Assembly (NCBI GenBank): GCA_019510485.1
Contig: JAEKKI010000137.1
Coordinates: 1 to 40,082 of the forward strand
Direction: 5' to 3'
DNA length: 40,082 nucleotides
Origin: Catenulisporales bacterium
GTDB taxonomy: Bacteria > Actinomycetota > Actinomycetes > Streptomycetales > Catenulisporaceae
The notes beneath the pieces are model-generated. The model made no database searches, was not told the origin of the DNA, and saw only the letters and a list, made by a program, of their open reading frames with translations. Made by a program: the position numbers and the translations under genes. Positions 1 to 39,326 of this stretch are shown piece after piece. Within the stretch, counting starts at the first letter, position 1, and every line of letters starts with the position of its first letter.

Positions 1-389
1 CGCGCGTCGACCAGGATCACCGCCAGCTCCGCGGTCGAGGCGCCGGTGACCATGTTCCGGGTGTACTGCACGTGCCCGGGCGTGTCGGCCAGGATGAAGC
101 GGCGCCGCGGCGTGGCGAAGTAGCGGTACGCGACGTCGATGGTGATGCCCTGTTCGCGCTCGCTGCGCAACCCGTCGGTGAGCAGCGCCAAGTCCGCCTG
201 CTCCAGGCCGCGGTCGCGCGAGGTGCGCTCGACCGCCTCGAACTGGTCGGCCAGCACCGACTTGGTGTCGTACAGCAGCCGGCCCACCAGCGTGGACTTC
301 CCGTCGTCGACGCTCCCGGCGGTGGCCAGCCGCAGCAACCCGGAGACCTGCGTGTCCTTCTGAACCGGCGCATCCAGCAGTGCGGTCAT
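1..389 (-). CDS. cysN: Sulfate adenylyltransferase subunit 1, GTPase (partial, N-terminal ~129 residues)
   Basis: CysN is the GTPase subunit of ATP sulfurylase. With CysD it makes adenosine 5'-phosphosulfate from sulfate and ATP, driven by GTP hydrolysis. Translating the minus strand from the ATG ending at 389 gives the EF-Tu-like GTPase motifs in order: G1 GSVDDGKST (about residues 26-34), the switch I stretch [11 protein letters not shown] and the G3 motif DTPGH. The gene leaves the window at its left edge, so the later G motifs and the C-terminal barrels are not visible. Its ATG shares one base with the cysD stop codon (TAATG), which implies translational coupling. An open frame of 118 codons over the same bases in another phase is a shadow. 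Confidence 0.95.
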
Positions 390-1312
390 TAGAAGTACCC
401 CTCTCGCTTACGGTCCTCCATGGCAGCCTCGGACAGCTTGTCGTCGGCCCGGGAAGCTCCACGCTCGGTGATCCGGGAAGCGGTGATCTCCTCGATCACG
501 GCGGTGATGTCGGTGGCATCGGAGTCCACGGCGCCGGTGCACGACATGTCGCCGACCGTGCGATAGCGCACTGTGCGAAGCTGCACCGTCTCACCGGCGC
601 GCGGCCCGCCCCACTCGCCGGGAGCCAGCCACATCCCGCCCCGGGCGAACACCTCGCGCTCGTGCGCGAAGTAGATCTCGGGCAGCTCGATCTGCTGCTC
701 GGCGATGTACTGCCACACGTCCAGCTCGGTCCAGTTCGACAGCGGGAACACGCGCACGTGCTCGCCGGGGCGGTGCCGGCCGTTGTACAGCCGCCACAGC
801 TCCGGACGCTGCCGCTTGGGATCCCATTGCCCGAAGTCGTCCCGCAGCGAGAAGACCCGCTCTTTGGCGCGGGCCTTCTCCTCATCGCGGCGTCCTCCGC
901 CGAAGACGGCGTCGAACTTGTTGGCTTGGATCGCATCCAGCAGAGGCACGGTTTGCAAGGGATTGCGCGTGCCGTCGGGACGCTCGACCAGCCGGCCGTC
1001 GTCGATGTAGTCCTGCACGTGTGCGACGTACAGCCGCAGGCCGTGCTGTGCCACCGTGCGGTCCCGGATGTCCAGCACCTCCGGGAAGTTGTGGCCGGTG
1101 TCCACGTGCAGCAACCCGAACGGCAGCGGCGCCGGCGCGAACGCCTTCAACGCCAGGTGCAGCATCACGATCGAGTCCTTGCCGCCGGAGAACAGCAGCA
1201 CCGGCCGCTCGAACTCGGCCGCGACCTCGCGGATGATGTGCACCGCCTCGGCCTCCAGCGCGCGCAGGTGGGTGTGCGCCGCGGCCGTGTCGTCGTGGGT
1301 GAGGATGCTCAT
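389..1312 (-). CDS. cysD: Sulfate adenylyltransferase subunit 2
   Basis: CysD is the catalytic ATP-pyrophosphatase-type subunit of the bacterial ATP sulfurylase heterodimer, forming APS from sulfate and ATP in the cytoplasm. The 307-residue product is full length for the family. The PP-loop SGGKDS lies at residues 42-47, followed by the conserved [10 protein letters not shown] and [12 protein letters not shown] stretches; the C-terminus ends in DRKREGYF. The ATG at 1312 follows the cysH stop after a single base (TGA T ATG), and its own stop overlaps cysN by one base. The three genes therefore read as a coupled cysH-cysD-cysN operon. No cysC (APS kinase) lies between cysH and cysD, where many streptomycetes carry it. 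Confidence 0.96.
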
Positions 1313-1313
1313 A

Positions 1314-2036
1314 TCAGGTGTGCAGTCCGCACTCGGTCTTGGCGTTGCCCGCCCAGCGCCCGGCCCGCGGATCCTCGCCCGGCAGCGGCTTGCGCGTGCA
1401 GGGCTCGCAGCCGATCGAGGTGTAGCCCTCCTGGAACAGCGGGTTGGTCAGGACGCCGTGGCCGTCGACGTAGGCGTCGACCTCGTCCTGGGTCCACGTC
1501 GCCAGCGGCGAGATCTTGACCATGTCCCGCTTGGCGTCGTAGCCGATCACCGGGATGTCCGCGCGAGTGGGAGACTCCTCGCGGCGCATGCCGTTGATCC
1601 AGGCGACGTACGGCTTCAGCGCGCGCTCCAGCGGCTCGACCTTGCGCAGCGCGCAGCACTGGTCGGGGTCGCGCTCGTACAGCCGCGGGCCGTACTCGGC
1701 GTCCTGTTCGGCGACGGTCTGCAAAGGCGTGATGTTCAGCAGCCGCACCGGATACATCTCGGCGACCGCGTCGCGCGTGCCCACGGTCTCGGCGAAGTGG
1801 TAGCCGGTGTCCAGGAACACGACGTCGACGCCCGGGGCCGAGGTGGAGGCCAGGTGCACCAGGTGGGTGTCGGCCATCGAGGAGGCGACGACCAGGCCGG
1901 CGCCGAAGGTGGCGTGGGCCCACTCGATGATCCGTCCGGCCGGCGCGTGCTCGAGCTCTGCGTTGGCCTGCTCGGCCAGCGCCCGCAGGTCGGTGGCCGT
2001 CGGATCGACCGACGCGAGCGCGGTGTCCGCTGACAT
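1314..2036 (-). CDS. cysH: Assimilatory adenylylsulfate (APS) reductase
   Basis: CysH reduces activated sulfate to sulfite with thioredoxin or a similar thiol. The 240-residue product has Cys pairs at 127-128 (CCALRK) and 210/213 (GCEPC), the iron-sulfur ligands of the APS-using bacterial type, and the catalytic tail ECGLH at 235-239. The substrate is therefore probably APS rather than PAPS, which fits the absence of cysC here. The frame stays open to 2108, but the ATG at 2036 is chosen because AAGGGGAAG precedes it and the protein then begins like family members. A leader peptide gene lies about 146 bases upstream. The 5' region contains an exact complement of the ribosome binding site, so translation may be attenuated. 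Confidence 0.95.
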   Translation of the reverse strand: MSADTALASVDPTATDLRALAEQANAELEHAPAGRIIEWAHATFGAGLVVASSMADTHLVHLASTSAPGVDVVFLDTGYHFAETVGTRDAVAEMYPVRLLNITPLQTVAEQDAEYGPRLYERDPDQCCALRKVEPLERALKPYVAWINGMRREESPTRADIPVIGYDAKRDMVKISPLATWTQDEVDAYVDGHGVLTNPLFQEGYTSIGCEPCTRKPLPGEDPRAGRWAGNAKTECGLHT

Positions 2037-2041
2037 TTCGG

Positions 2042-2129
2042 GCTTCCCCTTACAGTGGCGGGCGCGCGGACGTGCCGGATGCCCGACGTGCCGCGGCCGT
2101 ATCATCACGGCGGTGGCGGCGTGGGAAGC
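2042..2129 (-). promoter_or_regulatory. Possible attenuator: complement of the cysH ribosome binding site
   Basis: On the minus strand the heptamer GCTTCCC (bases 2129-2123) is the exact reverse complement of GGGAAGC (2048-2042), which lies inside the cysH Shine-Dalgarno region. The segment between leader stop and cysH start is also rich in GGCCGCGG-type complementary runs. A hairpin that hides the cysH ribosome binding site unless a ribosome stalls on the upstream leader is possible. The complementarity is directly visible; the mechanism is inferred. Confidence 0.4.
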
Positions 2130-2182
2130 GCCGGCGGACCGCGGCCCTTGTGGATCTTCGGTTTACAGATCGCGGGCGAGGT

Positions 2183-2269
2183 CTACTTGGCCGGCATACA
2201 TGCCATGCTGGACAGCCGTCCGAAGTCGACGTGACGCCGACCGACGAGGGCGATACCAGCACGAGACAT
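2183..2269 (-). CDS. Cysteine-containing leader peptide upstream of cysHDN (28 aa)
   Basis: A 28-codon reading frame starts at ATG 2269 and stops at TAG 2183. It begins MSRAGIALV, continues RRHVDFGRLSSM at residues 11-22, and has a single Cys at position 24. A near-identical 28-codon frame precedes the sulfite reductase gene at 7643-7729: 23 of 28 residues agree, with no length change. Synonymous third-base differences between the copies (for example GCT/GCC and GGT/GGA) indicate that the protein, not just the DNA, has been kept. The RRxVDxxR...C pattern resembles the very short putative leader peptides of streptomycetes, and cysteine-bearing upstream ORFs control cysteine genes in mycobacteria. 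Ribosome stalling at the Cys codon when Cys-tRNA is scarce is the likely role. No strong Shine-Dalgarno is seen. Confidence 0.8.
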   Translation of the reverse strand: MSRAGIALVGRRHVDFGRLSSMACMPAK

Positions 2270-2294
2270 GATTAGAGAGTCGCACGCTGCTGGC

Positions 2295-2335
2295 GGGTCG
2301 TCCACTGCCGTCCATGATGCGGACCTTGTGTCTCA
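2295..2335 (-). promoter_or_regulatory. Conserved 41-bp box upstream of the cysH leader (copy 1)
   Basis: Read on the minus strand, this block begins TGAGACACA and ends AGTGGACGACCC. It matches the block at 7756-7796 in 32 of 41 positions. It holds an interrupted palindrome, GTCC-N7-GGAC, at 2310-2324. The block ends 25 bases before the leader ATG, against 26 in the other copy. It is probably the shared promoter or operator of a sulfur regulon; the regulator is not in the window. Confidence 0.6.
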
Positions 2336-2450
2336 CGTCACTACACCAGGCGCACTCAGCGTTTCCTTCCGCCCGGGCTCGATGTCGGCGGGACGCCCGA
2401 TCCGGATCCCGGTGCGCCCAGCGCTTACCGGCATGCGGCGAATGGGGGTG

Positions 2451-2478
2451 CTGACGCTCGAGTGTGAGCCGTTAGAGT
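2451..2478 (+). promoter_or_regulatory. Candidate leaderless promoter
   Basis: A -35-like CTGACG (2451-2456) is separated by 16 bases from TAGAGT (2473-2478), a TANNNT -10 element. Seven bases later comes the ATG at 2486. This spacing would start the transcript at or next to the start codon, and it favours ATG 2486 over the in-frame GTG at 2477. Confidence 0.5.
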
Positions 2479-2485
2479 GAGCCGC

Positions 2486-3127
2486 ATGGGGGACTGGAAA
2501 ACACTGTCGATACCCATGCCGTCCGTGCCGGCGGACGCGCCGTGGCAACTCTCACTGGCCGGCTACCTCCGGCAGCGCACCGAACTGCCTTCGCTGGCGC
2601 TCAAGCCGCTCGGACTGCTCGACCGCTACGGCGAGGTCGCCGTCGGGCCGGACGCGATGGCGTTCGACGGCGAGGACGTCCCGTGGAACAAGGTGATCCG
2701 CCTGGTGGTCCGCGATGTCGTCGAGGTGGTCTCGGAGGCGGCGATGGCTCATGAGGCGGAGAAGATCCGTTCGATGCTCCCGCCGGTCCCGGGCCGCAAA
2801 TGGGTCGTGGAGCGGGCGATGACTCTACTCGGCGACATCGCCGGACCGCGCCTGATGAGGAAGCGCGGCGGCGAGGTGGTCAGCGAGGTCGTGTATCGGG
2901 GTGCCTTCCGCCGGGAGAAGACTTTGCAGGCCGGGGTGTTCGCGGCTCTGGTGATGGCGAAGTGGCCGGATGTGCAGCGCAGCCTGGTGGCCACGGCGCG
3001 GGTGCACGGGATCGAGGTTTACGGGGAGGCGCCGGTCGGGGAAACGCCGGTCGAGCTGACGCCGGTCGAAGAAGCACCGGCTGTCGACGCGGCATCGGAG
3101 TCGGTCGCGGCCATCGACAGCCAGTGA
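2486..3127 (+). CDS. Hypothetical protein with a possible PH-like N-terminal domain
   Basis: This 213-residue protein is not recognised with certainty. It has no signal peptide or membrane segment, so it should be cytoplasmic. Residues about 45-75 (GEVAVGPDAMAFDGEDVPW followed by a hydrophobic VIRLVV strand) resemble the strand-turn-W pattern of bacterial PH-like domains. A charged helical region with PPVPGRKWVVE follows. The last 40 residues are low complexity, with repeated PVE/PVG units (gacgccggtcg repeats in the DNA) and acidic residues. It stands between the two halves of the sulfur locus on the opposite strand and is convergent with the secreted-protein gene. A GTG nine bases upstream is an alternative start. 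A role in sulfur metabolism is not implied. Confidence 0.7.
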   Translation: MGDWKTLSIPMPSVPADAPWQLSLAGYLRQRTELPSLALKPLGLLDRYGEVAVGPDAMAFDGEDVPWNKVIRLVVRDVVEVVSEAAMAHEAEKIRSMLPPVPGRKWVVERAMTLLGDIAGPRLMRKRGGEVVSEVVYRGAFRREKTLQAGVFAALVMAKWPDVQRSLVATARVHGIEVYGEAPVGETPVELTPVEEAPAVDAASESVAAIDSQ

Positions 3128-3165
3128 CGACGGCGACCGGCCTATGAGCGGCCGGCCGCCGTCGT
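3127..3165. terminator. Bidirectional terminator between convergent genes
   Basis: ACGACGGC (3127-3134) pairs with GCCGTCGT (3158-3165), and inside it CCGGCC (3137-3142) pairs with GGCCGG (3150-3155). This gives a 14-pair stem with a 2x2 internal loop and a 7-base apex. It starts at the last base of the plus-strand stop codon and lies just beyond the 3' end of the minus-strand gene. Confidence 0.75.
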
Positions 3166-3180
3166 ATCAGCGCGAGAGCC

Positions 3181-4290
3181 TCAGCTCACTGTCGCGTGCG
3201 TCAGCGCGCACTTGTTGGTGTCGTTCGACCAGCTGCCCTGCTCGGTATAGGTCCCGTTGCCCATCTTCACGTTCCCGGCGCCGCCGGTCACGCCCTTGAG
3301 CCAGGCGCACTCGTCGGCGTTCTCCTGGCCCTGATACGGCGAGCCGGCGATGTTGTTGGTCCAGCCGCCGGCCGGGTTCTGGTCGGTGATGGTCTCGCTG
3401 TACTCGTGGCCCAGGGTCATGGTCCAGCCGTCCAGCGTGCCGGCGCTGCCGGAGTTCAGGAAGTTCACGCCGCATCCCGCGCCGCTGTCCATGTTGTAAG
3501 GCTGGTTGCTGAAGGCGAAGTCGCCGACGTCGGAGCTGATGGCGCCGCCGCTCAGCGTGCTGTCGCCGTTGTAGTCGTGCCACGCGCAGTACTGGCCCTG
3601 GTACCGGTCCGGGTTGGTGCCGTGGGGCGAGAGGATGACGTAATAGGCGTAGCGGTTGGCGGACGCCGTGGTGTTGCCGAAGTGGTGCGCCGCCTTCAGC
3701 GCCTCGGCGCCGAGCTGGTGGCCGGTGGCTGCGGACGGGGACTTCGCCGAGTTGTCGTACCAGACCCCGGCCAGCACGCCGCCGGTCGGGTACGGCACGT
3801 GCGCCGCGCCGGACGGGCAGCTGGTCGCGCCGGTGTGCACCAGTGGACCGTCGCAGTACTGCGTCATGGTCCCCGACCACGCCTCGCTGCCGGTGCCTAT
3901 GCCCTTGAACATCATCTGCGCGACCGGGGCGCCGTGCTTCGGGTCGTTGGAGAAGGTCAGGTTCCCGCTGGCGTCCTTGCTCTGGGTGCCCCACTGGCTC
4001 CCGTAGAAGACCACGTAGACCTTCGGGTGACCGCTCGTCACGCCGATGCCGTCGATGCCGCCGCCGTAGGACAGCGTCTCGTTCGACGAAGCGCGGCCGG
4101 CGGCGTTCGCGCGCAGCTGCGCGGCGCCGGAGACGGTGGGGAAGACTCCGTGCCGGGCGGAGACCGGGGTGGCCTGCGCCGATCCGGTCGTGCCGAGCGC
4201 GGCGAGCAGCGCGGCACCGGCGCCGAGCGCGGCACCCAGACGTGCCTTGCCGCGGCGTCGGGCGGAGCCGGTGGAGGAGGTGTGGAACAT
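3181..4290 (-). CDS. Secreted protein with an HEYSE (HExxE-type) motif, EXORDIUM/PHI-1-like
   Basis: The 369-residue precursor starts at ATG 4290, preceded by GAGAGGAAG. It opens with an Arg-rich n-region, a hydrophobic stretch (LGAALGAGAALLAAL) and an Ala-x-Ala-type site near SAQATP, a typical Sec signal, so the mature protein should be exported. The mature part is rich in Gly, Ser, Asn, Tyr and Trp. It has several Cys residues that could form disulfides and a central TLGHEYSETITDQNPAGGW segment. That HE-x-x-E-x3-D/N-P pattern resembles the HELAE...NP motif of plant EXORDIUM/PHI-1 proteins and their bacterial relatives, where it may bind metal. Protease activity is not established. The frame stays open to 4512 but the extra N-terminus is not protein-like. 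A sigma70-type promoter lies about 190 bases upstream. Confidence 0.8.
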   Translation of the reverse strand: MFHTSSTGSARRRGKARLGAALGAGAALLAALGTTGSAQATPVSARHGVFPTVSGAAQLRANAAGRASSNETLSYGGGIDGIGVTSGHPKVYVVFYGSQWGTQSKDASGNLTFSNDPKHGAPVAQMMFKGIGTGSEAWSGTMTQYCDGPLVHTGATSCPSGAAHVPYPTGGVLAGVWYDNSAKSPSAATGHQLGAEALKAAHHFGNTTASANRYAYYVILSPHGTNPDRYQGQYCAWHDYNGDSTLSGGAISSDVGDFAFSNQPYNMDSGAGCGVNFLNSGSAGTLDGWTMTLGHEYSETITDQNPAGGWTNNIAGSPYQGQENADECAWLKGVTGGAGNVKMGNGTYTEQGSWSNDTNKCALTHATVS

Positions 4291-4442
4291 GCGGTGGCTT
4301 CCTCTCGTCGGGACTCGCCGGCCGGCCGGATCGGCCGGGCCGGCGGTTGTGCGCGGGGCGCACGCCATCGGCACACGAGGGTGTCGCGTGCTGTCGATGT
4401 CGTGGTCCGTGGTGCGGTGGGGTCTTGCACCAAGCGCCCGGC

Positions 4443-4470
4443 GATCCGAGGTTCGCAAGAACCTGAGATC
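4443..4470. repeat. Inverted repeat in the 5' UTR of the secreted-protein gene
   Basis: GATC..GAGGTTC, a GCAA apex and GAACCT..GATC form a nearly perfect 28-base inverted repeat. The core arms AGGTTC/GAACCT are exact and the outer GATC arms also pair. On the minus strand it lies roughly 10-35 bases after the predicted transcription start, so it could be an operator or an mRNA hairpin in the 190-base leader. Confidence 0.5.
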
Positions 4471-4483
4471 GTCTGCGAGGGGG

Positions 4484-4512
4484 AACCTAGCAACGGGGCC
4501 TGACCCGGTCAA
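4484..4512 (-). promoter_or_regulatory. Sigma70-type promoter of the secreted-protein gene
   Basis: On the minus strand TTGACC (4512-4507) and TAGGTT (4489-4484) are separated by exactly 17 bases. This is close to the housekeeping actinobacterial consensus TTGACA-N17/18-TAGRRT. The predicted start is near 4477, leaving a leader of about 185 bases before ATG 4290. Confidence 0.7.
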
Positions 4513-4542
4513 CGGATCGGCCTCAATCAGTTAAGTAAAAAA

Positions 4543-4577
4543 GTCCTGATGGCCACCCTTGCCGTAGCCATCAGGAC
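4543..4577 (-). terminator. Intrinsic terminator downstream of the GH25 gene
   Basis: GTCCTGATGGC (4543-4553) and GCCATCAGGAC (4567-4577) form a perfect 11-bp stem with a 13-base loop. On the minus strand the stem is followed by TTTTTTAC, a U-tract that is rare in this GC-rich DNA. It lies 33 bases after the lysozyme stop codon. Confidence 0.9.
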
Positions 4578-4610
4578 CCTTGTTCAGCCCTTGTCCGCCC
4601 GCGGCCCGGC

Positions 4611-5600
4611 TCAGCGGTGTACCGCCTCGATCAGGTAGGACAGCGGTACGTTCGGGTTGATGGTGCGGACGACGCTGATCTTCTGCACCCCGGCCGGCAG
4701 CGGACCGCCGAACGGGTTCACGCGGTCGCCGGTGGCCGGCACGACCACGTCCTCGTAGATGTGCGACCAGCCCTGGCCGTGGGTGTGGATGGCGACCCGC
4801 ACGTGTGCGTCGCCGAAGTCCGAGCCGAGGCTGAACCACACGTTGCCCCAGCCGGCCGCGCCGAAGTTCGCCGGCGGCGGGCACACCATCGTCACCACGC
4901 CGGCGCCGGGATCGATCTGTCCAGTTGCGAAAGCGGGCACGTCGTCGTCCTCCGAGAGGGTGGGAGCGGGAGAGGCGCCCAGCGCGGCGATCAGCTCGCC
5001 CACGGTTCCGCGGAACGCGTTGTAGTCGAGCGGCCGGCCGGCGTCGGACGCCTGGTTCGTGAACTGGTACAGCAGCGGCGCCATACCGCCGTAGGAGTTC
5101 CAGCCCGACGCCGCGTCACCGGGGTAGAGGCGGGGCGCGCTGCCGGAACCGCCGGGATAGGACGAGGACACCAGGGACAGGCCGCGGGTCCGCAGCGCCG
5201 TGAGGTTCGGCGATCCCATCTGCTGCCAGTACCAGTGCGGAAGGTAGAGCAGCCGCAGGTTGAGGCCGACGGAATGCGCGGCGTCGGTGTAGGCGACCAT
5301 CTGGGCCAGCGACGGGGAGAACGAGCCGGCGGGCTCGGCGTCCAGCATGCCCGGCAGGGAGCTGTCGCCGGCGTGCGCCAGCGTGTGCTGGGCCTGCGCG
5401 TGCGGGTCCTCTCCGGACAGGAAGTGGTACCAGATGAACGGCAGGCCGAGCGCCCGGGCCTGGGACCGCCAACCCTGGTAGTCGGCGTCGGTGTAGTAGG
5501 TGCCTTCGGTCGTCTTGGCGAGGACGAAGGAGGCATCGGCCAGCCGGGACAGGTCCAGGCCGGCTTGGTAGGAGGAGATGTCCGGGCCGAAGATGGTCAC
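4611..5600 (-). CDS. GH25-family lysozyme without signal peptide, with an extra C-terminal domain
   Basis: The first ~210 residues match the glycoside hydrolase 25 (Chalaropsis lysozyme) barrel that cleaves N-acetylmuramic acid-GlcNAc links. Visible motifs are FGPDISSYQ at the N-terminus, a MLDAEP strand end with the catalytic Asp/Glu pair, and LYQFTNQ near the barrel end. A linker (PAPTLSEDDDVP) leads to a ~100-residue beta-rich domain of unknown type, possibly wall or carbohydrate binding. GTG 5600 is chosen because AAGGAG lies six bases before it and the protein then starts VTIFGPD. The frame continues upstream to 5645 without support. No signal peptide is present, so release would need another route, as in phage endolysins. 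It is 329 residues long and followed by a strong terminator. Confidence 0.87.
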   Translation of the reverse strand: MTIFGPDISSYQAGLDLSRLADASFVLAKTTEGTYYTDADYQGWRSQARALGLPFIWYHFLSGEDPHAQAQHTLAHAGDSSLPGMLDAEPAGSFSPSLAQMVAYTDAAHSVGLNLRLLYLPHWYWQQMGSPNLTALRTRGLSLVSSSYPGGSGSAPRLYPGDAASGWNSYGGMAPLLYQFTNQASDAGRPLDYNAFRGTVGELIAALGASPAPTLSEDDDVPAFATGQIDPGAGVVTMVCPPPANFGAAGWGNVWFSLGSDFGDAHVRVAIHTHGQGWSHIYEDVVVPATGDRVNPFGGPLPAGVQKISVVRTINPNVPLSYLIEAVHR

Positions 5601-5675
5601 AGGCGGCTCCTTGTGGGGGCGGGAGGGTCGCCGCGATGACCACATACCCGCCCCGATCGGTGCCGACTCAGCGTG

Positions 5676-5876
5676 TCAGCATTCGCCGACGTTCGCCATC
5701 CCGTCTTCGGCGGCCGCGGCCGGAGTCGGACCGCCGGGTGCGAGCAGCCCGATGAAGGAGACCTCGAACACCCGGCGGCAGGCCCGGCACGACCATCGCC
5801 GGTGGCTGCCTTCCTCCGGCCGCAGATCCTCGTCGCCGCAGTAGGGGCAGTATGCCGGGGCGGCGCGCTCGCTCAC
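5676..5876 (-). CDS. Small zinc-ribbon protein co-transcribed with sulfite reductase
   Basis: This 66-residue protein has C10-x2-C13 (CPYC) and C30-x2-C33 (CRAC), a typical zinc-ribbon arrangement, followed by a hydrophobic segment and an Ala/Pro-rich tail. Its GTG start overlaps the sulfite reductase stop codon (GTGA, four bases), so the two are translationally coupled. In streptomycetes a small gene of this kind commonly follows sir in the sulfur operon, and this appears to be its counterpart. Its biochemical role is unknown to me. Metal delivery or assembly for the reductase is only a guess from position. Confidence 0.8.
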   Translation of the reverse strand: MSERAAPAYCPYCGDEDLRPEEGSHRRWSCRACRRVFEVSFIGLLAPGGPTPAAAAEDGMANVGEC

Positions 5877-7585
5877 GACAGGTCTGCCTCACCGGCGCGG
5901 GTGGTCCACTGCGCGAAGGTCTCGTTCTCGCCGCGCTGCTCCAGGAAGCGGCGCACGACGCGCTCGATGTAGTCCGGAAGCTCCGCGGCCGTCACCTTCA
6001 GTCCGCGGACCTTGCGTCCGAAGGCGCCGTCCAGCGCGTCCTCTTCGTTCTTGGTCTGCGCGCCGAGGTGGCCTCCGAGGTGCACCTGGTAACCCTCGAC
6101 CTGCTCGCCGCGGTCGTCGAGGACCAGCTGGCCCTTCAGCCCGATGTCGGCGACCTGGATGCGGGCGCAGGAGTTCGGGCAGCCGTTGACGTTGACGGTC
6201 AGCGGCTGGTCGAAGTCCGGCAGCCGCCGCTCCAGCTCGTCGATCAGCGTCGAGGCGCGGTTCTTGGTCTCCACGATCGCCAGCTTGCAGAACTCGATGC
6301 CGGTGCAGGCCATCGTCGAGCGCCGGAACACCGACGGCCGCACCCGCAGGTCCAGCGCCTCCAGGGCGTCCACAAGCTCGTCGACGCGCTCGGCGGCGAC
6401 GTCCAGGATCAGCAGCTTCTGCTCCGTCGTGGTGCGCACCCGGTTCGAGCCGGCCGCCTCCGCGAGGTCCGCGATCTTGGCCAGCGTGGCGCCGTCGAGG
6501 CGGCCGACGCGCGGGGCGAAGCCGACGTAGTGGTTGCCGTCCTTCTGCCGGTGCACGCCGATGTGGTCGCGGTCGTAGGTGGGCGCCGGCTCGGGCGCGG
6601 GGCCGTCGGGCAGCGCGCGCTTGAGGTACTCGGTCTCCAACACCTCGCGGAACTTCTCCGCGCCCCAGTCGGCCATCAGGAACTTCAGCCGAGCGCGGCT
6701 GCGCAGCCGGCGGTAGCCGTAGTCGCGGAAGATGCCGCAGACGCCGGCCCAGACCTCGGGCACCTCCTCCAGCGTCACGAAGGTGCCGAGCCGCTTGGCG
6801 AAATGCGGGTTCGTCGACAGGCCGCCGCCGACCCACAGGTCGAAGCCGGGGCCGAACTCGGGGTGGACGACGCCGACGAAGGAGATGTCGTTGATCTCGT
6901 GCACCACGTCCTGCAGCCCGCTGACCGCGGTCTTGAACTTGCGGGGCAGGTTGGAGAACTCCTTGCTGCCGATGTAGCGCTGCTGGATCTCGTCGATGGC
7001 CGGGGTGGCGTCGATGACCTCGTCGGCCGAGATGCCGGCCACCGGTGAGCCGAGGATCACCCGCGGGGTGTCGCCGCAGGCCTCCGCGGTGGTCAGGCCG
7101 ACGCCCTCCAGCGTCCTCCAGATCGCCGGCACGTCCTCCACCCGCACCCAGTGCAGCTGGATGTTCTGCCGGTCGGTGACGTCGGCGGTGCCGCGCGCGT
7201 ACTTCTCCGACACCTCGGCGATGGCGCGCAGCTGCTCCAGGCTCAGGCGGCCGCCGTCGATGCGCACCCGCAGCATGAAGTACTCGTCGTCGAGCTCGTG
7301 CGGCTCCAGGATCCCGGTCTTGCCGCCGTCGATCCCGGGCCGGCGCTGGGTGTACAGGCCCCACCAGCGGAACCGGCCGCGCAGGTCCGAGCCGTCGATC
7401 GAGTCGAAGCCGCCGTAGGCGTAGACGTTCTCGATCCGGGCCCGCACGTTGAGCCCGTCGTCGTCCTTCTTGGTCTGCTCGTTGGCGTTCAGCGGCGTGA
7501 AGTAGCCCTTGGCCCACTGCCCCTCGCCGCGCTGTTGGCGGGGACGGCTGGCGCGGGCAGGCGGGGAGGACTGCGAGGCAGACAT
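5873..7585 (-). CDS. sir: Ferredoxin-dependent sulfite (nitrite/sulfite) reductase
   Basis: The 570-residue enzyme reduces sulfite to sulfide by six electrons with siroheme and a coupled [4Fe-4S] cluster. The cluster cysteines are visible in order: C427 and C433 in ACTGIEFCK, then C469 and C473 in NGCPNSCAR. Both ferredoxin-like halves (RFRWWGLYTQRR region and the second repeat after residue 320) are present. ATG 7585 is preceded by TATAAGGACC. The sulfur-gene context, small zinc-ribbon partner and cysteine leader argue for sulfite rather than nitrite as substrate, although the family includes both. The gene is about 3.6 kb from cysH and has its own leader peptide and control box, so it should be a separate transcription unit. 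Confidence 0.95.
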   Translation of the reverse strand: MSASQSSPPARASRPRQQRGEGQWAKGYFTPLNANEQTKKDDDGLNVRARIENVYAYGGFDSIDGSDLRGRFRWWGLYTQRRPGIDGGKTGILEPHELDDEYFMLRVRIDGGRLSLEQLRAIAEVSEKYARGTADVTDRQNIQLHWVRVEDVPAIWRTLEGVGLTTAEACGDTPRVILGSPVAGISADEVIDATPAIDEIQQRYIGSKEFSNLPRKFKTAVSGLQDVVHEINDISFVGVVHPEFGPGFDLWVGGGLSTNPHFAKRLGTFVTLEEVPEVWAGVCGIFRDYGYRRLRSRARLKFLMADWGAEKFREVLETEYLKRALPDGPAPEPAPTYDRDHIGVHRQKDGNHYVGFAPRVGRLDGATLAKIADLAEAAGSNRVRTTTEQKLLILDVAAERVDELVDALEALDLRVRPSVFRRSTMACTGIEFCKLAIVETKNRASTLIDELERRLPDFDQPLTVNVNGCPNSCARIQVADIGLKGQLVLDDRGEQVEGYQVHLGGHLGAQTKNEEDALDGAFGRKVRGLKVTAAELPDYIERVVRRFLEQRGENETFAQWTTRAGEADLS

Positions 7586-7642
7586 GTCGGGAAGGTCCTT
7601 ATAGAGAAGGTCGTACTGGCTGGCGGGAGCTGGCGGGCGGGG

Positions 7643-7729
7643 TCAGCGCGCAGCGGTACAGACCATGCTGGAAAGACGGCCGAAGTCGACGTGGCGTCGA
7701 CTGACGAGGGCGATTCCGGCACGGGACAT
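7643..7729 (-). CDS. Cysteine-containing leader peptide upstream of sir (28 aa)
   Basis: A 28-codon frame from ATG 7729 to TGA 7643 encodes MSRAGIALV, then RRHVDFGRLSSM at residues 11-22, a single Cys at 24 and the end TAAR. Its twin precedes cysH at 2183-2269 with the same length and only five residue differences, mostly in the last six positions. It ends 57 bases before the sulfite reductase ATG. The frame is too short for usual gene calling. The single Cys near the end, the conserved body and the position in front of both sulfur transcription units support a cis-acting attenuator that responds to cysteine supply. The action is inferred from cysteine upstream-ORF systems in other actinobacteria, not shown here. 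Confidence 0.8.
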   Translation of the reverse strand: MSRAGIALVSRRHVDFGRLSSMVCTAAR

Positions 7730-7755
7730 GTGTTTCAGCCTGGCAGCGTCTCCCG

Positions 7756-7796
7756 GGCTCGTCCACTCTGGTCCGGGATGCGGACGATGCGTCTCA
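7756..7796 (-). promoter_or_regulatory. Conserved 41-bp box upstream of the sir leader (copy 2)
   Basis: On the minus strand the block runs from TGAGACGCAT to AGTGGACGAGCC and matches the copy at 2295-2335 in 32 of 41 positions. Here the palindrome is better: GTCCG-N5-CGGAC at 7771-7785. It ends 26 bases before the leader ATG. A shared operator or promoter element is likely. The block begins 24 bases past the stop codon of the oxidase gene on the same strand. Confidence 0.6.
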
Positions 7797-7819: not shown

Positions 7820-9124
7820 TCAGTCGCCGAACACCTGCTTGGTGTACTCGTTGGCGAACAGCCGCTTCGGATCCACTCGATCGCGCACCCCGAGGAAGTC
7901 CTCGAACCGCGGGTAGGTTTTGCCCAGGTACTCGGCGTCGCGGGTGTGCAGCTTGCCCCAGTGCGGCCGGCCGTCGTGGGCCACGAAGACCTGCTCGGCG
8001 GCCTTGAAGTACTCCTCGAAGCGCGTGCCCTCGTACATGTGGCAGGCGATGTACGCGGTCTCGCGGCCGTGCGCCGTGGACAGCCACAGGTCGTCGCCGG
8101 GGACCACCCGCACCTCGATCGGGAAGTTCACGTTCCAGGTGGAGGCGTTGATCAGCTGGGTGAGCTCGCGGAAGGTCTCGACGAACGCCGCGCGGGGGAT
8201 GGCGTACTCCATCTCCGTGAACTTGACCCGGCGCGAGGAGGTGAAGACCTTGTCCGAGCGGTCGGTGTAGGTGCGGGCCGACAGCGCCGAGCCGGCGACT
8301 TTCTGCGCTGTCCGGGTCAGGCGGGGTGCGGTTCGGGCTACGCGCTGCACCGCGCCGAACACGGAGTTGGACAGGAACTCGTCGTCCATCCAGTGCCGGA
8401 AGCCGGACAGCGGGGCGGCCGGGCCGGTCGCCCGGTTGTTGCGCTTGATGTTGGTCCGGTCCGTGTAAGGGAACCAGTAGAACTCGAAGTGCTCGTTCTC
8501 GGCGACCAGCTCTTCGAAGCCGTCCAGTACAGCGTCCATGCGCATCGGCTCCTCGCGCGCGGTGAGGAGGAAGGCCGGCTCGGTGCGGAAGGTCACCGCG
8601 GTCACGTAGCCGATCGCCCCGACGCCCAGGCGCGCGGCCTGGAACAGCTCGGCGTTCTGCTCCGGCGAGCAGTTGACGATCTCGCCGCCGGCCAGCACCA
8701 CCTCCAGCGCGGCCACCTGTGCCGCGATCGAGCCGGACGCGCGGCCGGTGCCGTGGGTGCCGGTGCCGATGGCCCCGGCGACCGTCTGGACCTGGATGTC
8801 GCCCATGTTGGTCAGCGCCATGCCGTTCTCCGCCAGCAGCGCGTTCAGCTGGTGCAGCGGCATCCCGGACTCGACGGTGACCAGGTTGGCCTCCCGGTCG
8901 ATCTGCTTCAGCCGGGTCAGGCCGTCGGGCCTGATCAGCACGCCGTCGGTGGCCGCGGCCGAGGTGAAGGAATGGCCGGAGCCGACGGCCTTGACGGTCA
9001 GGCCCTCGTTCGCCGCGCCGCGCAGGATCTCCGCGACCTCCGACGCCGACTGCGGGGTGGCCACCCGGACCGCGTTCGCCGTCTGGTTGCCCGCCCAGTT
9101 GGACCATTCGTTCGCGCCCGCCAC
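7820..9124 (-). CDS. FAD-linked sugar-lactone oxidase (gulonolactone/arabinonolactone oxidase family)
   Basis: The 434-residue protein has the PCMH-type FAD domain (residues about 15-185) with GSGHSFT at 48-54. H51 is at the place where this family attaches FAD covalently, and GTGTHGTG lies at 120-127. The C-terminal ALO domain ends with HWGKLH at 388-393, the family hallmark, and a DPKRLFANEY tail. Relatives oxidise L-gulono-, L-galactono- or D-arabinono-1,4-lactone, or alditols; the substrate cannot be fixed from sequence. The start is GTG 9124 with only a weak GGTGAGG next to it. It points toward the sir leader and may read through into it, but the conserved sulfur box sits between them. 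No membrane segment or signal peptide is evident. Confidence 0.87.
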   Translation of the reverse strand: MAGANEWSNWAGNQTANAVRVATPQSASEVAEILRGAANEGLTVKAVGSGHSFTSAAATDGVLIRPDGLTRLKQIDREANLVTVESGMPLHQLNALLAENGMALTNMGDIQVQTVAGAIGTGTHGTGRASGSIAAQVAALEVVLAGGEIVNCSPEQNAELFQAARLGVGAIGYVTAVTFRTEPAFLLTAREEPMRMDAVLDGFEELVAENEHFEFYWFPYTDRTNIKRNNRATGPAAPLSGFRHWMDDEFLSNSVFGAVQRVARTAPRLTRTAQKVAGSALSARTYTDRSDKVFTSSRRVKFTEMEYAIPRAAFVETFRELTQLINASTWNVNFPIEVRVVPGDDLWLSTAHGRETAYIACHMYEGTRFEEYFKAAEQVFVAHDGRPHWGKLHTRDAEYLGKTYPRFEDFLGVRDRVDPKRLFANEYTKQVFGD

Positions 9125-36188: not shown

Positions 36189-36266
<78 letters not shown>

Positions 36267-39255: not shown

Positions 39256-39326
39256 GCGGATGTAGCTCAATGGTAGAGTCTCTGCCTTCCAAGCAGATTG
39301 TGCGGGTTCGATTCCCGTCATCCGCT
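39256..39326 (+). tRNA. tRNA-Gly(UCC)
   Basis: Acceptor GCGGATG (39256-39262) pairs with CATCCGC (39319-39325), discriminator T39326. D arm GCTC-AATGGTA-GAGT, anticodon stem TCTGC/GCAGA around CTTCCAA with anticodon TCC, T arm CGGGTTCGATTCCCG. It is 71 bases without an encoded CCA. An IS21-family element begins about 33 bases downstream. Confidence 0.95.

Follow-up and report, generated by a model that had tools for sequence, protein, structure and literature searches.

Polycysteine leaderless short ORFs in mycobacteria were reportedly described by Canestrari et al. in 2020 (Mol Microbiol 114:93). In the available part of PMC13236596, mycobacterial cysteine leaders are cited as translation attenuation, and the polycysteine short-ORF study is also cited in the corresponding part of PMC9094748. 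Seliverstov et al. (2005), in the accessible portion of their article, presented candidate cys leaders before actinobacterial cys operons, with no obvious terminators, and suggested Rho, weakly, for the mycobacterial ones; this portion makes no mention of Streptomyces cys leaders (PMC1262725). According to the available part of a theoretical treatment, sensitivity is low when a leader has one control codon among many (PMC1183508), so that a leader with a single Cys would need an extra source of sensitivity. Two NCBIfam models bear on such peptides, NF042936 (leader_Ms4527A, cut-off 45 bits) and NF042934 (cis_reg_atten, putative leader peptide, cut-off 27 bits).

Two leader frames in a split sulfate-reduction locus

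The first-pass annotation had singled out two minus-strand, 28-codon, near-twin frames in the window (the whole stretch of 40,082 nucleotides that was analysed), with a common core and a Cys at codon 24. Both are read directly from the sequence: the core RRHVDFGRLSSM is identical in the two leaders, the first nine residues are also shared, and the Cys at codon 24 is the only one in each. Their proposed position ahead of cysH-cysD-cysN and of the sulfite reductase gene agrees with gene order on the same strand and with Pfam, and a Cys-codon short ORF directly upstream of sulfur genes on the same strand is the arrangement of the mycobacterial-type attenuators. The leaders themselves had no Pfam match, and Rfam at the gathering threshold returned two tRNAs and no other match in the window.

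Table 1. Positions of the leader frames, neighbouring genes, spacers and putative promoters in the window
Feature	Position	Strand	Details
Leader ORF 1 (cysH leader)	2183..2269	-	28 codons + stop; MSRAGIALVGRRHVDFGRLSSMACMPAK
Leader ORF 2 (sir leader)	7643..7729	-	28 codons + stop; MSRAGIALVSRRHVDFGRLSSMVCTAAR
Candidate sensor Cys codon 24, leader 1	2198..2200	-	TGT, six residues past Arg18; basis: sequence, register and codon statistics
Candidate sensor Cys codon 24, leader 2	7658..7660	-	TGT, six residues past Arg18; basis: sequence, relatives 78/78 TGT
cysH, phosphoadenylylsulfate/adenylylsulfate reductase family	1314..2036	-	PF01507, E 1.3e-44
cysD, sulfate adenylyltransferase subunit 2	389..1312	-	PF01507, E 1.5e-43; product name by inspection
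cysN start (GTPase subunit), cut by window end	1..388	-	by eye
Sulfite reductase (sir)	5873..7585	-	PF01077, E 2.9e-53; PF03460, E 2.7e-42
Leader 1-cysH spacer, 146 nt	2037..2182	-	SD-like AAGGGG at 2051-2046
Leader 2-sir spacer, 57 nt	7586..7642	-	C 49%, G 18%; SD AAGGA at 7600-7596
Putative promoter, leader 1	2270..2304	-	TGGACG (2304-2299), 17 nt, GACTCT (2281-2276), 6 nt, ATG
Putative promoter, leader 2	7730..7765	-	TGGACG (7765-7760), 17 nt, CAGGCT (7742-7737), 7 nt, ATG

Scores of 29.9 (leader 1) and 26.2 bits (leader 2) against NF042936 and of 19.8 and 20.1 bits against NF042934 place both window leaders below the two cut-offs, and three leaders of the same genome (contigs C157, C225 and C221) exceed that of NF042934. 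By these similarities the window leaders resemble actinobacterial cysteine leader peptides, a known kind. The annotation was right in recognizing cysteine leaders before both reduction units, but the kind was already catalogued in these two families. Between the two copies, 12.0 synonymous differences over 21.8 sites (pS 0.55) stand against 7.0 nonsynonymous differences over 62.2 sites (pN 0.11), which upholds its claim that the peptide sequence is maintained despite synonymous change. The synonymous-rate test that it had called for, applied to 58 distinct sir/cysH leader DNAs, gave a dN/dS of 0.16.

The cysH leader was found in 9/9 other Catenulispora genomes compared and the sir leader in 8/9, the contig of the ninth ending inside sir; the C. 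rubra sir leader, counted among the eight, has Ser (AGT) in place of Cys. The leader pair is genus-wide in Catenulispora and no chance occurrence: the twin arrangement announced for the window exists but is not peculiar to it. A recent duplication limited to this genome was ruled out, both leaders being genus-wide.

Searching the source genome with NF042934 returned 13 matches, seven of them short leaders and six weak matches, with E values no better than 0.65, in frames of at least 198 aa. The seven leaders precede cysH, sir, a sulfonate-type substrate-binding protein, cysO-cysM, an FMN reductase, a rhodanese and a cysteine dioxygenase. The open reading frames behind the leaders that were compared with Pfam had been selected by a script. 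As more than two leaders thus precede sulfur genes, the coordinated regulon that the annotation had suggested is likely, and would be a cysteine regulon uniting seven or more sulfur loci here. The cysteine dioxygenase leader in Catenulispora, which carries the motif Asp-Arg-Pro-Val-Asp, overruns the start of its gene, and this course through the gene start suggests an opposite wiring.

The upstream sequences of both window leaders fit a loose promoter pattern, which was written after viewing some leader upstream regions and is partly fitted to its test data; a stricter sigma-70 consensus scan found no promoter before either window leader. The leader 1 ATG has no Shine-Dalgarno-like site upstream. 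Because the putative promoter ends at the leader ATG and such a site is lacking, the window leader mRNAs are probably leaderless. After thinning to 46 leaders, the promoter pattern abutted the start codon in 17/46, compared with 37 of 10172 control ATG/GTG codons. The pattern was missing in the other 29/46 and an SD-like 4-mer preceded the nearest ATG in 13/46, so leaderlessness is not uniform. SD-like sites were found before 3/79 leaders of a second retrieval (best 80 of 530). As a control, the SD-like sites at 68/76 sir starts were rejected as unfair, these starts having been chosen by SD score.

Register and codon of the conserved cysteine

A set of 111 distinct short ORFs was assembled from loci found by a Cys-free DNA pattern search and by NF042934 profile searches of the source genome and of phylum genomes (15/198 positive and 12 over cut-off among the latter), the DNA-pattern part consisting of 30 loci together with stretches hand-picked by recurring sequence (55 stretches, among the matches listed). 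The Cys lies six residues past the motif Arg (Arg+6) in 104/111, a register that is partly built in for the NF042934-derived loci because the profile ends at Cys. For the window and the loci fetched by the Cys-free pattern, the count was 53/55, the two misses being a gene-fragment-like frame and the C. rubra sir leader. Four of the seven ORFs without an Arg+6 Cys have no Cys after the motif. The register expression requires Arg at motif position 0, which leaves the Catenulispora dioxygenase leaders outside the 104. Conservation stops at Cys: the tail after it has 0-7 residues in 102/104 and is varied in sequence. The sequences are related; thinning, which required more than two core differences, reduced them to 46.

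The Arg+6 Cys codon is TGT in 102/104 leaders and in 44/46 after thinning. In the gene control, TGT accounts for 32/284 Cys codons (about 11%), UGU being the rarer of the two Cys codons, and for 19/89 where these leaders carry Cys elsewhere; the enrichment at Arg+6 is significant in the full set (Fisher 4e-32) and in the thinned one (2e-12). The two TGC exceptions are L043, located before a Trans_reg_C protein, and L117, with a TGT codon at Arg+4 instead. A second retrieval, with the aligned leaders as query, gave 80 named Catenulispora and Streptomyces loci (best 80 of 530), whose leader DNAs comprise 65 distinct sequences and include two or more of the cysH type. It overlaps the first set, since two loci match counted entries and a further three or more Catenulispora loci belong to genomes represented there. 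The Arg+6 Cys was TGT in all 78 scored leaders (78/78); the two unscored ones were L210, whose codon 24 is TGT but was missed by the regular expression, and L188, with Ser. A third retrieval searched class genomes with NF042936 (142/296 positive, 17 over cut-off). Thirty loci were taken, two of which were already in the first set; the regular expression found the motif in 28/30 (L280 and L281 were dropped) and an Arg+6 Cys in 27/28 (not L287). All 27 of these NF042936 leaders have TGT at Arg+6 (27/27), and their Arg+2 Cys is TGC in 17/26.

On these codon statistics, the bias shows that codon-level decoding at the Cys is also under selection, and a peptide-only arrest would not be the whole story, because the Cys codon is near-invariantly UGU. 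In bacteria generally, one tRNA reads both Cys codons. If this applies here, the choice of UGU cannot be put down to selective isoacceptor charging. The near-invariant UGU, together with the fixed register of the Cys behind a conserved peptide, goes beyond the annotation and was a surprise. Neither the UGU rule nor the C-rich stretch that follows the leader stop figured in the annotation. No statement on the UGU rule, RRHVD-type leaders or a dioxygenase leader was found in the accessible parts of the literature consulted, including PMC8079986 and PMC4833913, and one may still be in print.

The amino-acid conservation, in fixed register with the Cys, fits stalling by the nascent peptide. If the leaders worked by starvation attenuation alone, nothing but the Cys codon would matter and the RxVDxxR body would be conserved for mRNA folding rather than for an action in the tunnel. 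Several features of the sir group agree with this reading: its S-R-R-H-V-D codons could fold into a hairpin, codons 4-5 are complementary to codons 20-21, synonymous sites in the hairpin region are nearly fixed, and codons are fixed at several further places in a possible leader hairpin of 16 predicted pairs. Part of the conservation of sir-group leaders could be at the RNA level. As the cause of RRHVD, however, an RNA hairpin was rejected: across many gene contexts it was hardly stronger than after synonymous resampling (lower in 27/46 thinned leaders; means -3.78 kcal/mol for real and -3.19 for resampled sequences, mean z -0.28), and no compensatory double changes, hence no covariation, were found at the 16 predicted pairs among 34 sir/cysH leaders. 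Against such a role of folding, moreover, the Cys register is fixed and the Ser and Arg positions keep their residue through unrelated codons, the conserved Ser being written both AGY and TCN and the first Arg with five codons. We regard plain starvation attenuation as unlikely. That the peptide acts as a free small protein would agree with the dN/dS given above and is most improbable, given that conservation ends at the Cys with a varied tail behind it and that no codon rule at a single site would be expected if the product acted once released.

Candidate output steps downstream of the leader

The intrinsic terminator of a trp-type attenuator was found on the coding strand between leader and gene in neither window spacer. 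One terminator-like site lies on the opposite strand inside leader 2 and was ignored.

Output could take the form of translation attenuation as in M. smegmatis, the stalled ribosome keeping the leader off the downstream ribosome-binding site, as cited for the mycobacterial relatives. In keeping with this, the predicted cost of opening the SD and start of the window sir gene drops from 5.5 kcal/mol for the free leader to 2.8 once a ribosome is stalled, and the Cys-codon region of Catenulispora sir leaders is able to base-pair with a segment just before the SD. The window cysH copy, however, changes little (8.0 to 7.4), leader-gene spacers reach at least 308 nt among the 40 matches listed, and codon-order-shuffled leaders have the same mean cost (7.23 against 7.37), the real one being costlier in 37/78. 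Sequestration of the SD by the leader was not supported: the stalled state looked cheaper in 47/76 cases and dearer in 8/76, but the comparison of stalled with free states is biased, as cutting away 5' sequence also takes away pairing partners, and the shuffled control revealed no excess. As leader-to-SD pairing does not rise above codon-shuffled controls, the published mycobacterial output is unsupported by the folding test, and we consider it possible but doubtful here.

A Rho-dependent output is quite possible, if somewhat short of probable. Under cysteine-replete conditions, ribosomes would leave at the leader stop and Rho would load on C-rich RNA and terminate transcription, with which a stalled ribosome would interfere. 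Such a role was weakly suggested for the mycobacterial cys leaders, as mentioned above, and is consistent with the lack of a coding-strand intrinsic terminator in the window. In the 46 thinned leaders, C/(C+G) is 0.67 in the first 25 nt past the stop, against 0.46-0.53 in ten bins before the leader; the bias of C over G starts at the leader stop and fades by 200-250 nt. Over 75 nt after the stop, the ratio is 0.61, whereas a small control of 69 upstream regions gives 0.53 (p 2e-8); C-rich 5'-UTRs may also be a general trait of these genomes. The 25-nt bin before the leader start is also C-rich in the second retrieval (0.61, best 80 of 530). Furthermore, the stall would occur few codons before the stop and mask little of the C-rich stretch, and the Rho route is incomplete because part of that stretch would stay uncovered by a ribosome held at the Cys.

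A proposed cysteine sensor and its relation to known leaders

From the register, the codon rule, the amino-acid conservation and the gene context, we infer stalling with its trigger, a role for the peptide and an output step, and we consider it very probable that each window frame serves a cysteine-responsive leader as its sensor, at which the ribosome stalls on UGU when Cys-tRNA is short. To judge from the promoter spacing and from the SD being usually absent, RNA polymerase would start at the leader ATG or right beside it, so that the leader would be the first thing translated on a leaderless mRNA. The ribosome would read 23 codons and then meet the single Cys codon, UGU. At that point the conserved RRHVD(F/L/Y)xR would lie within the exit tunnel, its first Arg 13 residues before the Cys and its last Arg 6 residues before it. 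With scarce Cys-tRNA it would stall at UGU; with plentiful Cys-tRNA it would terminate four codons later and leave. By analogy with mycobacteria, the stall would turn on the downstream sulfur genes, through loss of Rho-dependent termination or unmasking of a ribosome-binding site. The sensor would be tuned by the wobble-read UGU and, probably, by the nascent peptide holding the ribosome at the codon. The same module before at least seven sulfur loci would join them into one cysteine regulon.

A tentative and rather doubtful extension is that RxVDxxR as tunnel peptide, five residues and Cys-UGU form a portable sensor, shared with mycobacterial leaders, whose output is set by the position of the leader stop. 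The module would have been copied before many unrelated sulfur genes, the nascent chain and the codon sharpening single-codon sensing. A stop soon after the Cys, as before assimilation genes, would switch expression on when cysteine is short; a stop inside the Catenulispora cysteine dioxygenase gene would, through coupled translation, switch it on under ample cysteine. Should the UGU rule and the register prove functional, they would define a portable cysteine sensor for actinobacteria, explain how one control codon can make a leader sensitive and reveal a synonymous codon choice in attenuators not covered by isoacceptor-charging theory. An annotation-only model (putative leader peptide) would then become a testable rule to find, from sequence, the sulfur regulons of Streptomyces and related organisms.

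Arrest peptides such as TnaC have conserved nascent residues at a set distance from the stall codon. The window leaders resemble them in their conserved residues and fixed register; their presumed trigger is a shortage of Cys-tRNA, unlike the bound ligand of TnaC-like peptides. With the mycobacterial polycysteine ORFs and NF042936 they share a short ORF before sulfur genes, an RxVDxxR body and a Cys near the stop, and the Arg+6 Cys is TGT in both window-type and NF042936 leaders. Sir-like proteins also follow such leaders in the mycobacteria-like loci L116 and L126 (by eye, taxon inferred). In contrast to the polycysteine ORFs, however, the window leaders have one Cys and no Cys tract. NF042934 covers the RRHVDLxR...C core and is a model that names a sequence and not a tested function. 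In the accessible portion of PMC1262725, the leaders of Seliverstov et al. carry runs of Cys codons near the stop, unlike the window copies. Finally, uORFC-8-2 before cysS in Rhodobacterales, as presented in the available part of PMC8632094, is also a conserved uORF with Cys codons proposed as a Cys-tRNA sensor, but it has an intrinsic terminator and its dominant Cys codon is UGC, whereas UGU dominates here.

The leader pair in the window and its spread

The first-pass annotation had described two short minus-strand frames with a single Cys codon, and reading of the sequence confirmed both as described. The leader of cysH is followed after 146 nt by cysH; next come cysD and the first part of cysN. 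The leader of the sulfite reductase gene (sir) ends 57 nt before that gene. Comparison of the two leader DNAs revealed differences at 12.0 of 21.8 synonymous sites versus 7.0 of 62.2 nonsynonymous sites. Since synonymous differences far outnumber nonsynonymous ones per site, the codons have drifted and the peptide has been kept, in agreement with the earlier proposal that it is maintained between the copies. Both leaders match the NCBIfam models leader_Ms4527A and cis_reg_atten, under the curated cut-offs. This pair of cysteine leaders is real and conserved, and represents a single-Cys version of an already known kind. A small Cys-rich zinc-ribbon-like ORF lies directly 3′ of sir, an arrangement also found in a relative (L060).

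Coordinates of the leaders, neighboring features and cysteine dioxygenase loci
Feature	Position	Strand	Remark
cysH leader	2183-2269	-	28 codons, Cys at codon 24
Zinc-ribbon-like ORF	5676-5876	-	
sir leader	7643-7729	-	28 codons, Cys at codon 24
D-arabinono-1,4-lactone oxidase family gene	7820-9124	-	PF04030; just 5′ of the sir leader
tRNA gene	36189-36262	+	
tRNA gene	39256-39326	+	
Dioxygenase locus L249	C197:11126-11623 and upstream		own genome
Dioxygenase loci L250-L258			other Catenulispora

A search of public genomes using twelve aligned leaders as the query yielded 530 loci, the best 80 of which came from Catenulispora and Streptomyces. The cysH leader is present in 9/9 other Catenulispora genomes and the sir leader was seen in eight of them, the contig of the ninth (G005) stopping within sir. 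In C. rubra (G001; L188, DSM 44948, and L067), the sole Cys of the sir leader is replaced by Ser (AGT) with the remaining peptide intact, providing a natural test case. Leaders also precede both sir and cysH in a sister genus (G010, L061); the twin arrangement, common to the two genera, is therefore old.

Register, selection and output

Of 111 distinct short ORFs with the motif R..[VIML]D[LFIVMY].R, 104 carry a Cys as the sixth residue past the second Arg of the motif (Arg+6). Within this set, the ORFs of the window plus those of loci retrieved by a Cys-free pattern show the register in 53 of 55 cases. Leu occupies position -3 in 91 of the 103 ORFs reaching that far, Ser is at +10 in 79/104, and the tail beyond the Cys is 0-7 residues long in 102/104.

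Across 58 sir/cysH leader DNAs, dN/dS is 0.16, and the Arg and Ser of the leader are retained via unrelated codons. Together with conservation over many gene contexts and the fixed distance of the sensor codon, these features lead us to propose, with moderate confidence, that the peptide acts in the ribosome tunnel. Leader conservation could instead reflect RNA pairing, as the RRHVD codons and codons 4-5/20-21 are able to pair in the sir group, where several synonymous sites are near-fixed; however, RNAalifold gave 16 pairs with 0 compensatory double changes, and the hairpin barely exceeds synonymous resampling across families.

The promoter pattern [TG]nGACn-N16..18-nAnnnT-N5..8-start was detected at 17 leaders of a thinned set (46 ORFs left after requiring more than two core differences) versus 37 of 10172 control codons, and is present before both leaders of the window. 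An SD-like 4-mer precedes 3/79 leaders of the aligned-leader set (best 80 of 530 loci) and 13/46 thinned leaders. These features speak for leaderless transcripts of the sir/cysH leaders, and less surely of the other leaders.

Regarding the output step, the terminator scan showed no intrinsic terminator for the window leaders. Past the leader stop, C is more frequent than G, as Rho would require. Pairing between leader and SD was no stronger than with shuffled leaders. Rho-dependent termination and translation attenuation are both candidate outputs.

Genes behind the leaders

The cis_reg_atten profile gave 13 matches in the own genome, seven of which are short leaders. Their targets are cysH, sir, a sulfonate-type ABC substrate-binding protein, cysO-cysM, an FMN reductase (a substrate-binding protein being next, by eye), a rhodanese and cysteine dioxygenase. 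Beyond the own genome, in relatives ranging from the genus to the class, Pfam analysis of 20 downstream proteins chosen by script identified substrate-binding proteins (four NMT1-type, two SBP_bac_5), an ABC permease, two FMN reductases, two luciferase-like monooxygenases and one cysteine dioxygenase. The same 20 include three SDF-family symporters (L128, L163, L066), possibly cystine transporters, and a sulfite-oxidase-type molybdopterin oxidoreductase (L153), possibly a catabolic or detoxifying target. Four of the 20 give no sulfur signal (Trans_reg_C, ROK, 2OG oxygenase and one without Pfam match). Profile searches found cis_reg_atten in 15/198 genomes phylum-wide (12 over the curated cut-off) and leader_Ms4527A in 142/296 class-wide (17 over it).

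The polycysteine leaders of mycobacteria-like genomes (L105-L107, L117, L127) retain an RxVxLCR body and stand, by eye, before a rhodanese gene (L106) or before genes for small membrane proteins. On its plus strand, locus L134 has a second, short leader-like ORF, MPRNGLTRRLHIDLLRVSSAY, with Tyr and a stop at the expected Cys place.

In 10/10 Catenulispora genomes, the dioxygenase leader continues past its Cys and across the enzyme's own SD and ATG; this ATG lies 52-55 nt beyond the Cys codon and the leader stop 23-35 nt within the enzyme gene. Ribosomes passing the Cys codon would finish beside the dioxygenase start and could feed it, and stalled ribosomes would not. This suggests the same sensor with an opposite output, as a lead only, since G+C-rich DNA often contains open frames and the ten loci share ancestry. 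In six loci of Streptomyces-like genomes (f2/g4; dioxygenase identified by Pfam for one, by eye for five), the leader ends 5′ of the dioxygenase gene. Codons are TGC at Arg+4 and TGT at Arg+6 in both groups. No dioxygenase match was found in four relatives outside Catenulispora.

Codon choice at the sensor position

At Arg+6, Cys is written TGT in 102/104 short ORFs (44/46 thinned), versus 32 TGT and 252 TGC in genes of the same loci; the remaining Cys positions of these leaders comprise 19 TGT and 70 TGC. Among the best 80 of 530 loci, it is TGT in 78/78 scored. The NF042936 (leader_Ms4527A) leaders display TGT in 27/27 at Arg+6, 18/18 at Arg+4 and 9/26 at Arg+2, with 30 TGT versus 230 TGC in genes. 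The three leader sets overlap slightly. The TGT rule opposes the G+C pressure of the other leader codons (GC3 0.84), and at two-fold motif sites of the thinned set the codon ends in C for 33/40 His and 33/46 Asp.

No description of this codon-and-register rule was found in the literature searched. A single tRNA (anticodon GCA) generally decodes both Cys codons in bacteria; if it does so here, isoacceptor-charging theory would not favor UGU. In E. coli, this theory accounts for which codons attenuators use (PMC1183508). Slower or weaker wobble decoding of UGU, which would sharpen the response to dropping Cys-tRNA, is a plausible reason for the choice. Unlike the UGU of these actinobacterial leaders, UGC predominates in the Rhodobacterales cysS leader (PMC8632094).
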